From IMG/VR virus record IMGVR_UViG_3300027906_000058, positions 1 through 37,766 of that record: DNA of 37,766 nucleotides; one strand, given 5' to 3'. The stretch's first letter is position 1; every line of letters begins with the position of its first letter. Made by a program: the position numbers and the translations under genes. Below the pieces are notes generated by a model that saw only the letters and a list, made by a program, of their open reading frames with translations, ran no database searches and was not told where the DNA came from. Positions 5,976-37,292 of the stretch are shown here, piece after piece. The stretch comes from a virus.

Positions 5976-6161
5976 AATAAAGGCGGCTCGATAGTCGAAT
6001 CAGTAGAAGCCACAGGCAACCGCGTCCGTTCATTCCTTAATGGAACGCATGAAACCACATCATGGAACGGGGGTGTGGTACTATGGAGAAAGTCAATGCA
6101 AAAAAAGACTCAACTAAAGTATCGCGGTGTGCCTTATACAAAGAAAACTTAAACTTTTTAA
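5976..6161 (+). other. Structured intergenic element with overlapping short ORFs
   Basis: This spacer between scaffold and the beta-barrel gene is G-rich compared with its surroundings and holds three predicted stem-loops: TCGA-TAG-TCGA at 5988-5998; CGTTC/GAACG (6027-6047), extended by ATT/AAT with one bulged G; and an 8-bp ACCACAUC/GGUGUGGU helix with one G-U pair (6054-6061 with 6072-6079). Two frames look protein-like. One starts at ATG 6040 (MERMKPHHGTGVWYYGES..., stop 6117). The other is open from the scaffold stop to 6152 and ends QLKYRGVPYTKKT. A seven-A run (6100-6106) lies where they overlap. It could be a regulatory RNA, a frameshifted mini-gene, or both. Confidence 0.5.
6096..6152 (+). 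CDS. Putative 18-aa peptide with LKYRGVPY motif
   Basis: ATG 6096 gives the peptide MQKKTQLKYRGVPYTKKT. The core LKYRGVPY resembles the YRGV-x-Y motif of small cyanobacterial and cyanophage proteins (DUF4278-like), a resemblance from memory that has not been searched. The same frame is open upstream to the scaffold stop (...NGGVVLWRKS), so the true product may be longer and start at a non-standard codon, or arise by frameshifting from the ORF beginning at 6040. No clear ribosome binding site is present. Confidence 0.35.
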   Translation: MQKKTQLKYRGVPYTKKT

Positions 6162-6870: not shown

Positions 6871-6875
6871 GTAGG

Positions 6876-6906
6876 AAGGGAGGCACCTCAGAGTAGGACC
6901 TCCCTT
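6876..6906 (+). terminator. Hairpin with 8-bp stem upstream of capsid gene
   Basis: AAGGGAGG (6876-6883) pairs perfectly with CCTCCCTT (6899-6906) around a 15-base loop. Only a weak T tract follows (TTTCATT), so it may be an attenuator or RNA processing site rather than a full terminator. It separates the small genes from the highly expressed capsid gene. Confidence 0.45.
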
Positions 6907-7022
6907 TCATTGGCACTGGCCCTGTACGCAGGATACCCTTTGCCGTCTAGACGGTGGGAAAGACCACACAATTGATCAACAATTACGCGTAAGAAAGTTA
7001 ACAATACAATTATTTTTTTATA
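6907..7022 (+). promoter_or_regulatory. Capsid gene leader with perfect 12-base palindrome
   Basis: This 116-base non-coding leader has a perfect palindrome CCGTCTAGACGG (6943-6954), the almost palindromic ATTGATCAACAAT, and an A/T-rich run (TTATTTTTTTATA) just before the capsid ATG. No Shine-Dalgarno sequence is evident. Longer leaders before the major capsid gene often carry a late promoter or RNA stabiliser. The phage polymerase promoter is not known here, so none can be named. Confidence 0.35.
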
Positions 7023-19634: not shown

Positions 19635-20816
19635 ATGGCAACAGAAGTAAGTTATAATGGGGACGGTTCTAATAAAACATTTTCTATAACATTCCCATTT
19701 ATAAAATCAGATGATGTAAAAGTAAAAGTTGGTACAGAAACTTTATCTTCATCTGACTACAGTATTACTGGAACTGTGGTTACAACAGACACAGCTCCAG
19801 CTTCAGGTACTGGCAACGTTAAGCTTTATAGATCCACACCAATAGATTATCCTGTACATGATTATTCAGCAGGATCTACAATAAGAGCAAAGAATTTAAA
19901 CGATAATCAAAAACAAGTTTTATATGGTATTGAAGAAGCTAAGTTAGTTACAGTTACCTCAGGAGGTATAACTACGGGTGCTAAGAATGATATCCATGTA
20001 AATAGTGATACAGATTGGTATATAAGAACCGATGCTGTAGAACAAGGCATGTTAGCTGACAATAGTGTTGGTACTAATCAGATAGCAAACGATGCTGTAA
20101 CATCTATTAAATTAAAAGATGATGCCTCTACTGATGGTAATAGAGCAGTTACAACAAATCATATAAGAGATTCTGCTATTACAACTGCTAAACTAAACAA
20201 TGAGGCTGTTGAAACTGCTAAAATAGATGATGATGCTGTTACCTATGCTAAGATGCAGAATGTTGGAACAGCTAATCGTGTACTAGGCAGTACTTCTGCT
20301 GGTGGTGTAGTATCAGAAGTACAGATAACTACAAATATGATAGCTGATGGCGCTGTTACAACTGCTAAAACGTCTGGTGGTGCAGGTGTTCCTGTAGGTA
20401 CCGTTATATGGATGTGTTCTTCAGCAGCTCCATCAGGTTATTTAAAAGCTAACGGAGATGCTATCTCTAATGGTACTGGTACTACCCAAGGTGTTACAGC
20501 TAACTTTTCTGCTCTTTATGCTCTTGTAGGCGCTAGTTTACCTGATTTACGTGGTGAATTTATAAGAGCTTTGGATGATGGTAGAGGTGTTGATGGTGGA
20601 AGAAGTATCTTGCAAACTCAAGCAGATGAACTGAAAAGTCACCAACATACTTCAGATGGTGCTAGATATGGTTCAAATAGTAATCATCCAGGTTCTAATT
20701 TCTATTCTAGTGCAGGAGATAATACAGGTAATAATGTTGTAAACAGTATAAACGCAACAGGCGGTACGGAAACAAGACCAAGAAACGTAGCTTTACTTGC
20801 ATGTATTAAATACTAA
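19635..20816 (+). CDS. Tail fibre with T7 gp17-type anchor and tail-collar-like end
   Basis: The 393 residues start with the T7 gp17 N-terminal virion-binding domain (VSYNGDGSNKTFSITFPFIK; DYSAGSTIRAKNLNDNQKQ). A shaft of short repeats follows at residues ~150-250 (the pattern AITTAKLNNEAVETAKIDDD). A C-terminal tail-collar/microcyle-type domain begins at about 255 (PVGTVIWMCSSAAPSGYLKA; LPDLRGEFIRALDDGRGVDG) and ends with ALLACIKY. It should attach to the gp11/gp12 interface and reach the host surface. It begins two bases after the gp16-like stop. Confidence 0.88.
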   Translation: MATEVSYNGDGSNKTFSITFPFIKSDDVKVKVGTETLSSSDYSITGTVVTTDTAPASGTGNVKLYRSTPIDYPVHDYSAGSTIRAKNLNDNQKQVLYGIEEAKLVTVTSGGITTGAKNDIHVNSDTDWYIRTDAVEQGMLADNSVGTNQIANDAVTSIKLKDDASTDGNRAVTTNHIRDSAITTAKLNNEAVETAKIDDDAVTYAKMQNVGTANRVLGSTSAGGVVSEVQITTNMIADGAVTTAKTSGGAGVPVGTVIWMCSSAAPSGYLKANGDAISNGTGTTQGVTANFSALYALVGASLPDLRGEFIRALDDGRGVDGGRSILQTQADELKSHQHTSDGARYGSNSNHPGSNFYSSAGDNTGNNVVNSINATGGTETRPRNVALLACIKY

Positions 20817-34810: not shown

Positions 34811-34921
34811 ACACATTAGTGTTGCTTATGTAACATATTGTGTGCACATCTGTATGCGATGCTATCATGATTACAGAGTGTTAAGCTTTATTTGTTTATA
34901 CTCCCAAACAGGACCAATCCG

Positions 34922-34957: not shown

Positions 34958-35134
34958 ATGAATAGATACCAACAACAATTATGCATGAATTTAAGTGAAT
35001 TACTCACTGAAGATTACGCTCTATTAAATGAAGTAATCGAAGAGTATGTAACACTCTTAGGTAACTCAAATAGAATGCATGATTTACATGATTATACTTC
35101 TCAAGAAATCGAGAATGATTGGGGACGTGGGTAA
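34958..35134 (+). CDS. Hypothetical early protein, 58 aa
   Basis: MNRYQQQLCMNLSELLTEDY begins an acidic helical protein ending SQEIENDWGRG. A GAGG sequence lies seven bases before the ATG, the only clear Shine-Dalgarno sequence in front of the first genes of this early block. Not recognised. Small acidic early proteins of T7-like phages often inhibit host enzymes, but no such function can be assigned here. Confidence 0.6.
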   Translation: MNRYQQQLCMNLSELLTEDYALLNEVIEEYVTLLGNSNRMHDLHDYTSQEIENDWGRG

Positions 35135-35146
35135 CACAAACCTCAA

Positions 35147-35200
35147 GGGATTATGAAAGAGTTGTTAACAACAACGTGAGTGCAATTCTCACCAGTCCCA
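35147..35200 (+). ncRNA. tRNA-like element lacking a D arm
   Basis: The acceptor-like pairing is GGGATT (35147-35152) with AGTCCC (35194-35199), including one G-U pair. A 5-bp/7-base T-arm-like hairpin GTGAG-TGCAATT-CTCAC (35176-35192) sits directly before the 3' acceptor strand. A middle hairpin GTTG-TTAACAA-CAAC (35161-35175) has the size of an anticodon arm, with a 7-base loop. Only seven bases replace the D arm. The T loop is not canonical (TGCAATT rather than TTCRANT), so a functional tRNA is unlikely; a decayed or mimic tRNA is more likely. Confidence 0.35.
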
Positions 35201-35230
35201 TTGATACTAACTGTTCAACGTTATGTATCA
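35201..35230 (+). repeat. TTGATAC...GTATCA hairpin, copy 1
   Basis: TGATAC (35202-35207) pairs with GTATCA (35225-35230) around a 17-base loop. It begins directly after the tRNA-like element at 35147. Confidence 0.5.
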
Positions 35231-35253
35231 TTATTACAGAGTGTAACAAAGCA

Positions 35254-35282
35254 TTGACATCACGTTCAAACTCTGCTATACT
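35254..35282 (+). promoter_or_regulatory. Consensus sigma70-type early promoter
   Basis: TTGACA (35254-35259) and TATACT (35277-35282) are separated by exactly 17 bases. This is a full -35 consensus and a one-mismatch -10, which is rare in A/T-rich phage DNA by chance. The start of transcription would be near 35289, giving a ~53-base leader before ATG 35342. It should be read by host RNA polymerase immediately after DNA entry. Confidence 0.88.
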
Positions 35283-35341
35283 ATGTATATAAGATGAATG
35301 AGTAACATTTTTCATCTTTAATCTTTCATTCAATTGTTATT

Positions 35342-35554
35342 ATGAATCAAGTTCTAATTCACTGCAAACCTGAATACTTACCACAAGTAAAAGAGTTAGG
35401 TTTGAGTTACATTCATTCTCAAAATGATGAGATTGATGTAACAGTTTCAGACATTGATTATGATTCTAATCATCACATTGTTGATCCAGATGAACAACTA
35501 TGTTATCTTTACAAGATTGATTACGATCAAGTTAATTGTATGGAACTTGTTTAA
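35342..35554 (+). CDS. Hypothetical early protein, 70 aa
   Basis: MNQVLIHCKPEYLPQVKELG begins a small alpha/beta-looking, strongly acidic protein with HSQNDEIDVTVSDIDYDSNH and a terminal YKIDYDQVNCMELV. It is the first gene after the strong promoter. The leader is T/A-rich without a Shine-Dalgarno sequence. An early host-takeover role is likely by position only. Not recognised. Confidence 0.65.
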   Translation: MNQVLIHCKPEYLPQVKELGLSYIHSQNDEIDVTVSDIDYDSNHHIVDPDEQLCYLYKIDYDQVNCMELV

Positions 35555-35558
35555 TCCT

Positions 35559-35602
35559 GCTGGATCTGGTGATTACATAAGGGTTCGATTCCCTTTCCAG
35601 TT
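35559..35602 (+). ncRNA. tRNA minihelix-like element (acceptor plus T arm only)
   Basis: A perfect T arm AAGGG-TTCGATT-CCCTT (35579-35595) is flanked by GCTGGA (35559-35564) pairing with TCCAGT (35596-35601, one G-U pair), as in the acceptor/T-arm half of a tRNA. D and anticodon arms are replaced by 14 bases. The T loop is canonical. It may be a tRNA remnant, a processing signal recognised by RNase P or RNase Z, or a sequence matching the 3' end of a host tRNA gene. Confidence 0.5.
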
Positions 35603-35603
35603 A

Positions 35604-35621
35604 TTGATACTTTAAGTATCA
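35604..35621 (+). repeat. TTGATAC...GTATCA hairpin, copy 2
   Basis: TGATAC (35605-35610) pairs with GTATCA (35616-35621) across TTTAA, two bases after the minihelix-like element. Confidence 0.6.
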
Positions 35622-35628
35622 CAGTCAC
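35619..35628 (+). repeat. TCACAGTCAC decamer, first of four
   Basis: The same ten bases occur at 35619-35628, 36137-36146, 36870-36879 and 37708-37717, all on the + strand and all within the early block. Three copies are in untranslated or gene-end sequence and one (36870) is inside a coding region. The function is unknown; it could be a protein or small-RNA binding site. Confidence 0.6.
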
Positions 35629-35648
35629 ACCGCTAACTAACAACAACT

Positions 35649-35810
35649 ATGTTCCACCTTGTTCAACAAGATCCTGGCGAAACTGTACTACTAAGTACAA
35701 ACGAGTCAAGAGAACGGTTACTGTTTATTATGGGTCAAAAGAAGATGCGTAATCCTCAATGTTTTTATGAGATTATGACCTCTGATGAACTCAAACTAGC
35801 AAACAGTTAA
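35649..35810 (+). CDS. Hypothetical early protein, 53 aa
   Basis: MFHLVQQDPGETVLLSTNES begins a small protein ending EIMTSDELKLANS. It is preceded by an unstructured leader (CTAACTAACAACAACT) with no ribosome binding site and followed by a double hairpin. It looks like a real gene from its amino-acid balance and its spacing between RNA elements. Not recognised. Confidence 0.55.
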   Translation: MFHLVQQDPGETVLLSTNESRERLLFIMGQKKMRNPQCFYEIMTSDELKLANS

Positions 35811-35822
35811 TGTTACTTTCTC

Positions 35823-35861
35823 TCTCCCCAATTAGGGAGACTGAAGGAAACTAACTCCTTC
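35823..35861 (+). repeat. Double-hairpin module, copy 1
   Basis: Hairpin A is TCTCCC/GGGAGA (35823-35840, six-base loop). CT follows, then hairpin B GAAGGA/TCCTTC (35843-35861, seven-base loop). The same design recurs at 37237. It lies between two early genes and may serve as terminator, mRNA stabiliser or RNase site. Confidence 0.65.
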
Positions 35862-35886
35862 ATTATTCACCCTATCTAACTACAAC

Positions 35887-36123
35887 ATGACTAACCTCAA
35901 AGTAAACAACTCTTCTGCTATTACATCACTAAATGTTGATGAGCTTGAGCAAACTGCACAAGTTGAGTTCACAAATGGCAGCAAGTACACATACTTTGGT
36001 GTAGCTAAGGATGCAATTCGTAACCTTCTTTATAAGTCAACACCTGACACATCACTAGGTCAATGGGTTAACAATAACCTGTTATCTGCTGGCTGTCGTT
36101 ATCAGTTTGGCTTCGAAGGTTGA
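35887..36123 (+). CDS. KTSC domain protein
   Basis: The 78 residues match the KTSC domain: VNNSSAITSLNVDELEQTAQ, then VEFTNGSKYTYFGVAKDAIR, and a TSLGQWVNNNL segment. KTSC is a small domain found in phages and bacteria, in some cases fused to other proteins such as lysyl-tRNA synthetase; its function is not settled. It is translated from a leader with no Shine-Dalgarno sequence just after the double hairpin. It is followed 54 bases later by tRNA-Asp. Confidence 0.85.
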   Translation: MTNLKVNNSSAITSLNVDELEQTAQVEFTNGSKYTYFGVAKDAIRNLLYKSTPDTSLGQWVNNNLLSAGCRYQFGFEG

Positions 36124-36177
36124 TTGTTAATTAACTTCACAGTCACGCGTGGTTCTTAATACAAACTGCGCTTTACT

Positions 36178-36249
36178 GGAGCTATAGATTAACGGCTAAA
36201 TCATATGCTTGTCACGCATAAGATCCGAGTTCGATTCTCGGTAGCTCCG
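36178..36249 (+). tRNA. tRNA-Asp (GTC)
   Basis: The acceptor GGAGCTA/TAGCTCC is a perfect 7-bp stem, the discriminator is G, and the T arm is CCGAG-TTCGATT-CTCGG. The anticodon arm TATGC-TTGTCAC-GCATA displays GTC, with U33 and A37. The D arm is present. CCA is not encoded. It lies between KTSC and the next early gene. Confidence 0.92.
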
Positions 36250-36268
36250 TTGATACTTTATGTATCAA
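36250..36268 (+). repeat. TTGATAC...GTATCAA hairpin, copy 3
   Basis: A perfect 7-bp stem TTGATAC/GTATCAA with a five-base loop TTTAT starts directly after the tRNA-Asp discriminator base. It could mark the 3' boundary for RNase Z or exonuclease trimming. Confidence 0.7.
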
Positions 36269-36291
36269 ATGTTCACTCACTATTTGTTACT

Positions 36292-36621
36292 ATGCTTTCA
36301 GCAATTGAACAGATTAAATCAGACTATGACTATGAAGATGCAAAGCAAATTGTTAACTCTGGTTGTGAATCTGGTGTGTGCTTCAAACACATATATTATG
36401 CTGATACCATCGGCTTCTTTAACAAGTATCCCGATGAAATCACCCGATATATTGTTGACGAACTCTCTATTGAGTTCTTGAAGGATACACTTGAGCGCCA
36501 TGATGGCAATCTTGATTGTTACTTAAACGATCTAACTTGGGCCTTCATTGAATTAGTTTCTGGTGAAATCGTTGATGAGTATGAATCAACAACATGTGAA
36601 GAGTTAAGTTATGCTTACTGA
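36292..36621 (+). CDS. Conserved-looking acidic early protein, 109 aa
   Basis: MLSAIEQIKSDYDYEDAKQI, then VNSGCESGVCFKHIYYADTI, LDCYLNDLTWAFIELVSGEI and the end TTCEELSYAY. I have the impression of similar proteins in many cyanophages but cannot name the family. It is strongly acidic. The frame is open upstream through the tRNA, but ATG 36292 follows the hairpin and is the sensible start. The gene end overlaps the membrane peptide at 36611. Confidence 0.7.
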   Translation: MLSAIEQIKSDYDYEDAKQIVNSGCESGVCFKHIYYADTIGFFNKYPDEITRYIVDELSIEFLKDTLERHDGNLDCYLNDLTWAFIELVSGEIVDEYESTTCEELSYAY

Positions 36622-36691
36622 GTTAATCGTCTTAGTTTGTATCACTATTCTCATTTACATATTCTTGAAGAATACAATCAACCATTCTTGA
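36611..36691 (+). CDS. Putative single-helix membrane peptide, 26 aa
   Basis: ATG 36611 encodes MLTELIVLVCITILIYIFLK and six more residues, almost all one membrane helix. It overlaps the last bases of the previous gene in another frame, a common arrangement for small phage peptides, and ends 15 bases before tRNA-Gly. Confidence 0.45.
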   Translation: MLTELIVLVCITILIYIFLKNTINHS

Positions 36692-36706
36692 CTAAATATC
36701 AAGAAC

Positions 36707-36777
36707 GCGGGTATAGTTTAATGGTAAAACTGTAGCATTCCAAGCTATTGTTGCAGGTTCGAATCCTGTTACCCGCT
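36707..36777 (+). tRNA. tRNA-Gly (TCC)
   Basis: The acceptor GCGGGTA/TACCCGC is perfect and the discriminator is T. The D arm GTTTAATGGTAAAAC contains the usual GG. The anticodon arm GTAGC-ATTCCAA-GCTAT displays TCC, and the T arm is GCAGG-TTCGAAT-CCTGT with one G-U pair. CCA is not encoded. This tRNA reads GGA and GGG codons. Confidence 0.92.
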
Positions 36778-36779
36778 TT

Positions 36780-36793
36780 GGGATTAACGTCCC
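36780..36793 (+). repeat. Short hairpin after tRNA-Gly
   Basis: GGGA (36780-36783) pairs with TCCC (36790-36793) around six bases, just after the tRNA. It holds the place that the TTGATAC hairpin has after the other tRNA-type elements. Confidence 0.45.
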
Positions 36794-36815: not shown

Positions 36816-37133
36816 ATGACAGCAACACCTAAGCTACAACCAAAACCTGTTCGAACTAATAACAATAGTTCACAGTCACAGCCGGTTGTTATTACTAAAC
36901 AGCAGAACTTTACACACAAAGAACCAATTATCATACCATCTCACCTCGATGAGGTACCAGTTATTAGTGCAGCATCTTATATCAAGGACGCTCGCAATCG
37001 CTGGTTCATTCACACAGTGGAAGTCAAAGAAGTGTGGGACGTGCATGTTAATTTGTTTAATAATGTAAAGCCTCATGTACTCAATGCTCATGATTACGTT
37101 GTTAAGCGTTATCAGGAGTTAAGTAATGACTAG
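36816..37133 (+). CDS. Hypothetical early protein, 105 aa
   Basis: The first ~35 residues are Pro/Asn/Gln/Ser-rich and likely disordered (TPKLQPKPVRTNNNSSQSQP). The rest has order (SYIKDARNRWFIHTVEVKEV, then VNLFNNVKPHVLNAHDYVVK). Not recognised. It begins after a T/A-rich leader without a ribosome binding site. It ends overlapping a membrane peptide. Confidence 0.6.
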   Translation: MTATPKLQPKPVRTNNNSSQSQPVVITKQQNFTHKEPIIIPSHLDEVPVISAASYIKDARNRWFIHTVEVKEVWDVHVNLFNNVKPHVLNAHDYVVKRYQELSND

Positions 37134-37227: not shown

Positions 37228-37236
37228 AGCTCTCTC

Positions 37237-37274
37237 CCTGCCTTCTAGGGCAGGCTGAGGGACTCACACTCCCT
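37237..37274 (+). repeat. Double-hairpin module, copy 2
   Basis: Hairpin A is CCTGCC/GGCAGG (37237-37254, six-base loop). After CTG comes hairpin B AGGGA/TCCCT (37258-37274, seven-base loop). Loop lengths and the CTGA link equal those of the copy at 35823, while the stems differ in paired fashion. Confidence 0.65.
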
Positions 37275-37292
37275 TATTCTTTACTTTAAACT

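Follow-up and report, generated by a model that had tools for sequence, protein, structure and literature searches.

The presumed early region of a cyanopodovirus genome (IMG/VR record IMGVR_UViG_3300027906_000058; the complete stretch of 37,766 nucleotides is referred to as the window) carries tRNAs and tRNA-like elements between small genes, raising the question of what such elements do in a polycistronic mRNA. Intergenic positions in the window hold tRNA-Asp, tRNA-Gly, and two tRNA-like elements lacking an anticodon, all on the + strand and each with a hairpin at most two bases 3' of it; no element in the window encodes CCA. The initial annotation of this DNA had placed tRNA-shaped elements at three junctions, and all are present: element 1 at exactly the positions proposed, tRNA-Asp by ARAGORN/Rfam, and element 2 with a one-base error in its coordinates (35558–35603, not 35559–35602).

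Elements at the early gene junctions

The presumed early region opens with a small + strand ORF (34958–35134; 58 amino acids by ORF scan and translation) with no match in a Pfam search. Element 1 (35147–35200) lies 3' of it and has an acceptor of 6 bp (GGGATTA/CAGTCCC) with a mismatch at 7:66, a 22-nt linker containing a small GUUG/CAAC arm, a T arm (GUGAG-UGCAAUU-CUCAC), and a discriminator A; its fold has a z-score of −3.2. The same element occurs in the relative L033 (5826–5879), with compensatory changes in the acceptor and T stem and no hairpin after it, and was absent when sought at the same spot in the closest relatives (L003, L004, and L005). The + strand hairpin after element 1 in the window (35202–35230; TGATAC, a 17-nt middle, and GTATCA) is looser than the others, and part of its 3' arm overlaps promoter-side sequence conserved in relatives. 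A sigma-70-type promoter-like site (35254–35282, + strand; TTGACA-17-TATACT) was identified by consensus scan with 11 of 12 matches, and the aligned sites read TTGACT..TATACT in L003 and TTGACA..TATACT in L005. Given this good promoter-like site, element 1 may belong to a different transcript from the other three.

Element 2 (35558–35603) is a 46-nt mini-tRNA situated between two + strand ORFs from the ORF scan, one of 70 amino acids (35342–35554) whose stop codon ends 3 nt 5' of the element and one of 53 amino acids (35649–35810) located 45 nt past its discriminator base. A scan with the protein of the upstream ORF gave no match. The element comprises an acceptor, a 3-bp D-like arm with a UGGU loop, a 5-nt linker in place of the anticodon arm, a 5-7-5 T arm (loop UUCGAUU), the acceptor 3' strand, and a discriminator A. 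Its tRNA-like fold is conserved in relatives with compensatory changes: in a gap-free 46-nt alignment of the family (10 distinct sequences), 97% of cells are paired, 9 of 14 pairs are changed on both sides, and the covariation score is 0.737 versus 0.273 for shuffled sequences. Single-sequence folding, which is too weak to decide, rates the element alone no better than shuffles (z −0.7) and predicts a different fold in context.

Both full tRNAs were detected by ARAGORN and Rfam, the latter showing a complete cloverleaf with anticodon. tRNA-Asp(GUC) (36178–36249; 67.9 bits; discriminator G) is located between a KTSC-domain ORF (35887–36123; 78 amino acids; Pfam KTSC E 1.2e-7) and a DUF7222 ORF (36292–36621; 109 amino acids; Pfam PF23864 E 1.7e-10) that starts 42 nt past the tRNA discriminator base. 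tRNA-Gly(UCC) (36707–36777; 68.8 bits) is followed after 38 nt by a 105-amino-acid ORF found by ORF scan (36816–37133); all three ORFs are on the + strand. Directly 5' of tRNA-Gly, a + strand hairpin (36685–36705; TTCTTGA-CTAAATA-TCAAGAA) is a candidate 3' end structure for the upstream mRNA, and stems of other sequence occupy this site in L041, L044, and L046.

A class of anticodon-less mini-tRNAs

GenBank phage protein searches with the early genes returned no useful relative, so relatives were taken from IMG/VR. A structure search in which T54, C56, R57, and A58 were imposed as criteria identified dozens of minis in sense orientation in uncultured relatives among the cyanopodoviruses, viruses of marine cyanobacteria, together with matches in the cultured phages P-SSP7, P-GSP1, NATL1A-7, and Syn5. 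Minis are nearly missing from antisense strands, shuffled sequences, and unrelated phages. The relatives gave 40 sense matches versus 1 antisense and 0.4 per shuffle, later loci gave 35 versus 2 and 0.5 per shuffle, and each of the 4 matches in 492 kb of other sequence fell within a real tRNA cluster. The minis have no anticodon arm and cannot serve in decoding, and neither ARAGORN nor the Rfam tRNA model reports any of them. Rfam gave no match to minis at lax thresholds (E 5 in the window region), nor at E 1 in nine loci holding minis or the capsid-slot hairpin described below, and none of the GenBank records inspected has a feature annotated at mini positions.

Across 44 distinct minis, 89.6% of cells are paired (versus 53.9% in shuffled and at most 48% in slid alignments), the covariation score is 0.944 versus 0.208, and 11 of 12 pairs are changed on both sides. 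The T arm is invariant, and so is G53-C61, although this pair was not a search criterion. Acceptors usually have 5 or 6 pairs, with 7:66 unpaired in 32 of the 44 minis and 1:72 in 14, and linkers of 8 to 22 nt, which vary greatly between families, stand for the D arm, anticodon arm, and variable loop. The circularity of choosing sequences by pairing was checked with a capsid-slot set picked on the T arm alone, the acceptor strands of which were permuted; acceptors matched against their own 5' strand gave a mean run of 5.06 versus 3.88, with a maximum of 4.61 in 2000 permutations. MAFFT places the 5' acceptor strands wrongly when given full minis with linkers; for this reason pairs were counted on linker-free alignments and the gap-free 46-nt family and not through a covariance model. 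A lack of conservation in relatives had been named beforehand as a result that would refute a processing function, and conservation was found instead, with the exception of element 1 in the closest relatives.

Adjacent hairpins and interchange at gene junctions

The hairpin at element 2 (TTGATACTTTAAGTATCA; 35604–35621) starts directly after the discriminator base, and that at tRNA-Asp (TTGATACTTTATGTATCAA; 36250–36268, of which TTGATACTTTATGTATCA forms 36250–36267) directly after base 73. Both are on the + strand and have compensatory variants in relatives, including TTGACTC..GAGTCAA in L004 and L014 for the former, and 0.02 chance occurrences of the TTGATACTTTAAGTATCA/TTGATACTTTATGTATCA pattern are expected in the window. 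The different hairpin previously noticed at 36780, after tRNA-Gly, is also present (GGGATTAACGTCCC; 36780–36793, + strand), with variant stems in L044, L046, and L062. The earlier description of one TTGATAC...GTATCA hairpin within two bases of three elements was correct in position but needs correcting as to sequence: the element 1 hairpin is looser, and relatives have TTGACTC..GAGTCAA, TTGACAC..GTGTCA, or TTGATAG..CTATCA at the same position. What is conserved is the placement of a hairpin there, whereas the sequence varies. A downstream hairpin was found after 25 of 33 tRNAs (2.5 expected) and 15 of 26 early minis (1.6 expected), versus 0 of 23 control tRNAs from other phages; an upstream hairpin was found at 26 of 32 tRNAs (7.2 expected). 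Observations counted against punctuation include the lack of a qualifying downstream hairpin at the other 11 of 26 early minis, the z-score of −0.7 for element 2 and the different fold predicted for it in context, and the absence of element 1 from the closest relatives.

Minis, full tRNAs, and another hairpin substitute for each other at the same junctions among relatives. The junction 3' of the KTSC ORF is occupied by tRNA-Asp in the window but by a mini-tRNA in L010, L050, and other relatives. At the junction before the ORF at 36816–37133, the window has tRNA-Gly where L010 has tRNA-Asp and L003 lacks a tRNA. The location of these elements on the coding strand at gene junctions is evident from the sense-strand counts above and from L050, where one element is found at each of five consecutive junctions. 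A mini-tRNA also precedes the major capsid gene in most P-SSP7-like phages, so the elements are not confined to early genes. The mini in this slot, which another hairpin can replace, lies downstream of a Glutamine-II riboswitch and of a short peptide ORF; the window has a + strand hairpin with a conserved CACCTCAGAGTAGGA loop there (6874–6909), and L133 has a degenerate tRNA-Gly-like element missed by ARAGORN. The proposal in the initial annotation that complete and reduced tRNAs serve as processing signals for early mRNAs is partly supported, by the shared junctions, interchange, acceptor/T-arm covariation, and excess of hairpins; its restriction to early genes is not.

Proposed mRNA processing and alternative explanations

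The sequence, structure, covariation, position, interchangeability, and adjacent hairpins of the elements are established. With a probability of roughly 0.6, these elements are conserved tRNA-mimicking marks that punctuate cyanopodovirus polycistronic mRNA and are cut by the RNase Z of the host (RNase P acting as well at full tRNAs and some minis), leaving hairpin-protected ends; cleavage, the identity of the enzymes, and end protection are what we infer. RNases P, Z, E, and J are present in cyanobacteria (PMC10989914), hairpins consisting of an acceptor plus T arm are substrates of Escherichia coli RNase P (PMC11143913), and P-SSP7 infection raises host RNase E (PMC9692554). Full tRNAs and anticodon-less minis would act as interchangeable junction modules offering an acceptor/T-arm domain to RNase Z and RNase P. 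RNase Z would cut immediately 3' of the discriminator base, and the downstream mRNA would then start with a short hairpin, resisting attack by RNase E or RNase J on its 5'-monophosphate end. At full tRNAs, RNase P would cut too, freeing a working tRNA and leaving an upstream mRNA that ends in its own hairpin. In 6 of 26 early minis, the element contains the upstream stop codon, and this is evidence against RNase P regularly cutting at those sites; a canonical RNase P cut would create a stop-less mRNA, so a lone 3' cut by RNase Z or translation coupling fits better. The likeliest course at these minis would be the 3' cut alone, with the mini left in place to cap the 3' end of the upstream mRNA. 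Because 7:66 and 1:72 are often unpaired, minis are imperfect substrates on paper. More tentatively, and at somewhat under even odds, cyanopodoviruses may have evolved dedicated anticodon-less processing tRNAs as transferable mRNA punctuation, where one RNase Z cut per mark would create both an upstream 3' tRNA-like cap and a downstream 5' hairpin cap, allowing messages to survive the raised host RNase E.

The tRNA mimics could instead work uncut in cis, setting the translation or stability of their neighbors as stable 3' or 5' structures or as sites bound by EF-Tu, the CCA-adding enzyme, an aminoacyl-tRNA synthetase, or a phage protein. Stop codons within several minis suggest that ribosome and fold meet there, and the capsid-slot mini, with its preceding riboswitch and peptide ORF and its replacement by another hairpin, is consistent with such a role. 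This explanation is considered unlikely, given that the same slots hold full tRNAs, whose function requires excision, and that the hairpin begins right after base 73, the expected RNase Z cut site; the large linker differences between families also do not suggest one specific binding protein. It is quite improbable that released minis are small RNAs that act in trans, for example by competing for the RNase P/Z of the host or by serving tRNA-targeting defenses as bait, with their intergenic place being secondary. The minis are tRNA-like and abundant in some genomes, and their excision would yield stable RNAs of ~40–55 nt, but they are found at junctions with hairpins alongside, where a full tRNA or other hairpin replaces them, and no cluster of unlinked minis came to light. 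Anticodon nucleases, moreover, could not be baited by RNAs that have no anticodon.

Codon use is the usual explanation of phage tRNAs, and the degenerate element in the L133 capsid slot indicates that minis may derive from tRNAs. An explanation in which the full tRNAs alone have a role, in decoding, and minis are decayed tRNA genes or attachment-site remnants is nevertheless very improbable, being contradicted by the compensatory changes at 11 of 12 pairs, the invariant T-arm bases, the adjacent covarying hairpins, and the many minis of differing sequence per genome. Least probable is that the hairpins serve as terminators of transcription or as RNase III sites, with the tRNA-like parts being incidental. 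RNase III cleaves the early mRNA of T7 at intergenic hairpins, and a terminator-pattern scan lists the tRNA-Gly hairpin, yet this hairpin has no real T run of the kind that follows the G+C-rich hairpin of an intrinsic terminator. Neither the element 2 hairpin nor the tRNA-Asp hairpin appears in the same scan, and both lack a T run; stems of 5 to 8 bp are short for RNase III; and the T-arm signature is invariant. The terminator, RNase III, attachment-site, and decayed-tRNA explanations were rejected or ranked low on this evidence.

No description of such mini-tRNA punctuation was found in the open-access papers searched, and the minis represent an RNA class so far unannotated in long-sequenced model cyanophages, including P-SSP7 and Syn5. 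Punctuation by tRNA mimics would offer a reason other than codon supply for single intergenic tRNAs in small podoviruses, and a testable account of how phage mRNAs could mature and be protected while the phage itself drives up RNase E in its host. In T7, also a member of the Autographiviridae, a host nuclease likewise cuts early polycistronic mRNA between genes, but the sites are RNase III hairpins and not tRNA mimics, and the structure search found no minis in T7. MALAT1 mascRNA and related tRNA-like 3' ends likewise have a tRNA-like fold embedded in a longer RNA, which acquires a mature end through processing; unlike the minis, mascRNA belongs to a eukaryotic noncoding RNA, is of larger size, and does not recur as a module between cistrons. 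M3 RNA, P1/P7 C4 RNA, and T4 tRNA precursors are also phage RNAs cut by host RNase P, although they are single RNAs or tRNA clusters and not repeated marks between protein genes (PMC11143913). The synthetic minimal-domain system has the minimal domain and T loop of the phage minis, which differ in being natural and in often having a small D-like arm or linker hairpin; if the proposal is correct, they are stripped-down natural RNase P/Z substrates of a kind hitherto known mainly as laboratory models. Punctuation of this kind would also provide a bacterial-virus counterpart to that by mitochondrial tRNAs. In both systems, tRNAs are intergenic, RNase P and RNase Z ends would set the mRNA ends, and reduced tRNA-like elements serve junctions without a full tRNA; here, the setting is a bacterial DNA phage, the marks are mostly minis that lack an anticodon arm, the presumed cut sites are flanked by dedicated hairpins, and the elements swap between relatives.

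Elements of the probable early region and their source virus

The source record (IMG/VR) is linear and 37,766 bases long. Its head, tail, and terminase genes are of T7-like type, and ribonucleotide reductase and thyX are also present. Its terminase gene region shares 72-78% DNA identity with the marine T7-like cyanopodoviruses P-SSP7, NATL1A-7, P-GSP1, and P-SSP2. Because the Syn5 genome ends with a thymidylate synthase gene, the small genes past thyX (from about 34.9 kb) are taken as the probable early region. A repeated sequence, TATCATNATTACAGAGTGT, is found at 34863-34881 and 35226-35244, upstream of promoter-like sites, and is kept in relatives; it is possibly a regulator site of early promoters.

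The initial annotation placed two tRNAs and two elements of tRNA shape between genes here. tRNA-Asp(GUC) (36178-36249) and tRNA-Gly(UCC) (36707-36777) are genuine tRNAs, and element 1 (35147-35200) and element 2 (35558-35603) are indeed tRNA-like, lacking an anticodon arm (mini-tRNAs). The proposed common TTGATAC..GTATCA hairpin, of which 0.02 occurrences are expected per window, lies directly 3' of element 2 and tRNA-Asp, but element 1 has only a looser version. The hairpin behind tRNA-Gly is present and differs from it, as described.

Conservation and covariation of the mini-tRNAs

Using the DUF7222 protein (ORF 36292-36621) as a query, eight loci of related uncultured cyanopodoviruses were retrieved from IMG/VR. 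Element 2 and its hairpin occupy the same place in L003, L004, and L005, and the L004 hairpin (TTGACTCAATCAAGAGTCAA) is a compensatory replacement. A pattern scan identified further element 2 loci (L014 and L019) and a second group (L010, L020, L027, and L033) with a gap-free 46-nt alignment to element 2 despite a differing acceptor and T stem. In the element 2 family (10 distinct sequences), 97.1% of cells are paired, both sides change in 9 of 14 pairs, and the covariation score of 0.737 compares with 0.273 in shuffles and no more than 0.248 when partners are slid. In the small D-like arm, A-U is replaced by C-G at the outermost pair. Element 1 is not present in L003-L005; L033 has it, with compensatory substitutions (A1-U72 for G1-C72, plus two pairs of the T stem).

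The wider class was examined with a detector whose criteria were a T stem of 5 bp, the loop T[TG]C[AG]A.., at least 6 of 7 acceptor pairs, and an 8-24-nt linker. Applied to non-redundant relatives (256,770 bases), it returned 40 sense-strand cases (including a few within true tRNA genes), of which 25 have a hairpin behind them, versus one antisense case and an average of 0.4 in 20 dinucleotide shuffles (0 with hairpin). Unrelated sequence (491,662 strand-bases, T7 and tRNA-rich phages included) gave four matches, all within known tRNA clusters and none with a hairpin behind it. Later loci, retrieved with the KTSC protein (ORF 35887-36123) and partly overlapping the earlier contigs, gave 35 distinct sense mini-tRNAs (19 previously unseen), 22 with a hairpin, versus 2 antisense and 0.5 per shuffle. 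Among cultured phages, the same settings detected mini-tRNAs in NATL1A-7 (record 23770-23724, minus strand; 7-bp acceptor; identical hairpin TTGATACTTTATGTATCAA), P-GSP1, and Syn5; those of P-SSP7 (602-649 and 20631-20680) were detected once the acceptor requirement was lowered by one pair. SS120-1 and T7 had none. In the predicted fold of P-SSP7 20631-20720 (z -3.5), acceptor, small arm, and T arm form a three-way structure with a hairpin behind it. No feature is annotated in GenBank at this P-SSP7 site or at its counterparts in P-SSP2, P-SSP3, and P-GSP1.

When 44 distinct mini-tRNAs were cut down to acceptor and T arm, both sides changed at 11 of 12 pairs, 89.6% of cells were paired (53.9% shuffled), and the covariation score was 0.944 (0.208 shuffled; at most 0.205 slid); position 7:66 is mostly without pairing. 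G53 and C61 are invariant and neither was imposed by the search, unlike T54, C56, and A58, which were search requirements. Since most of the 44 were selected partly by pairing, permutation at the capsid-gene slot is a cleaner test. The P-SSP7 capsid protein retrieved 80 IMG/VR loci, of which 70 extend 180 nt or more upstream; by hand count, 46 of these have a mini-type T arm, 21 instead a hairpin with the conserved loop CACCTCAGAGTCGGA or a near variant, one a mini-tRNA whose T loop is altered, and two are incomplete. This set was picked by T arm alone, so acceptor pairing could be tested without circularity. The mean longest paired run for 18 distinct 3' acceptor strands was 5.06, versus 3.88 (sd 0.19, maximum 4.61) when strands were swapped among phages (2000 permutations), and at least 5 acceptor pairs formed in 16 of 18 (permuted mean 5.0, maximum 11). 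The NATL1A-7 slot holds a full tRNA-Gly. That of L133 (about 629-695) holds a degenerate tRNA-Gly-like element carrying UCC in an anticodon-like loop; ARAGORN does not call this element, which may represent a step between tRNA and mini-tRNA.

Other structures accompany this slot. The alternative hairpin (CACCTCAGAG) is near the SS120-1 capsid gene and at 6874-6909 in the window. Its CACCTCAGAGTNGGA loop is strongly conserved while its stems vary; it replaces the mini-tRNA in the window, L082, L084, L098, and other loci, occurs also at L074 35271-35285, and is perhaps another processing signal. Directly 3' of mini-tRNA or alternative hairpin is a conserved structured leader, TTGGC..GGATACC..GCCGTCTAGACGGTGGGATAGACCACA (window 6909-6965; capsid slots of L078-L156). 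A Glutamine-II riboswitch aptamer lies upstream of the capsid region (window 6024-6079; L084, L107, and L123); P-SSP7-like phages have a short peptide ORF after it, with the stop apparently within the mini-tRNA.

Flanking hairpins and exchange of elements at junctions

Of 33 early-region tRNAs, 25 have a hairpin starting within 2 bases of the element end (2.5 expected), as do 15 of 26 early mini-tRNAs (1.6 expected); among the tRNAs of three other phages, the count is 0 of 23 (1.7 expected). The stems are kept while the sequences differ widely. Hairpins also lie just upstream of 26 of 32 tRNAs (7.2 expected), with stems as different as AAGGAC..GTCCTT, AGGGAC..GTCCCT, TTCTTGA..TCAAGAA, and TCCTTGA..TCAAGGA, and of 17 of 26 mini-tRNAs (5.6 expected), several within the upstream ORF.

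The elements are interchangeable. At the KTSC/DUF7222 junction, the window has tRNA-Asp, and L010 and L050 have two different mini-tRNAs; 5' of the 105-aa gene (36816-37133), the element is tRNA-Gly in the window and tRNA-Asp in L010, and L003 has neither. Hairpin TTGCCTCTCAATGAGAGAGG is behind tRNA-Asp in L050 and behind a mini-tRNA in L053. L050 has exactly one element at each of five consecutive junctions.

A second recurrent intercistronic element, with a CTCTC start and hairpins of varying stems, occurs at 35821-35862 and 37230-37276 and in relatives (L003:4432-4490, at the window's tRNA-Gly junction; L005:1624-1675; L006:4288-4335). L004 also has two near-identical copies (1852-1896 and 2512-2556) of a structured element, GGCGGTGACCTGC..GCCGCC, one adjoining tRNA-Gly.

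Proposed processing and relation to tRNA punctuation

No Rfam family matches the mini-tRNAs, and a full-text search of mainly open-access papers found no description of such elements in phages. An acceptor/T-arm hairpin is the minimal unit cut by E. coli RNase P (PMC11143913), and RNase P, RNase Z, RNase E, and the 5'-3' exonuclease RNase J all occur in cyanobacteria (PMC10989914). P-SSP7 induces host RNase E, and protection of phage transcripts by antisense RNAs has been proposed (PMC9692554). Given how RNase E and RNase J generally act, a hairpin starting right at the RNase Z cut would shield the new 5' end. Of 26 early mini-tRNAs, 6 contain the upstream stop codon, and for 9 it ends at the element or up to 8 nt 5' of it; the short peptide ORF of P-SSP7 apparently ends inside the acceptor. 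Canonical cutting by RNase P would take away stops inside the element, so these mini-tRNAs may undergo the 3' cut alone and remain as a 3' cap. The phage elements would work like tRNA punctuation of polycistronic mRNA, which they match in position and structure, with putative cleavage by host RNase Z and RNase P.
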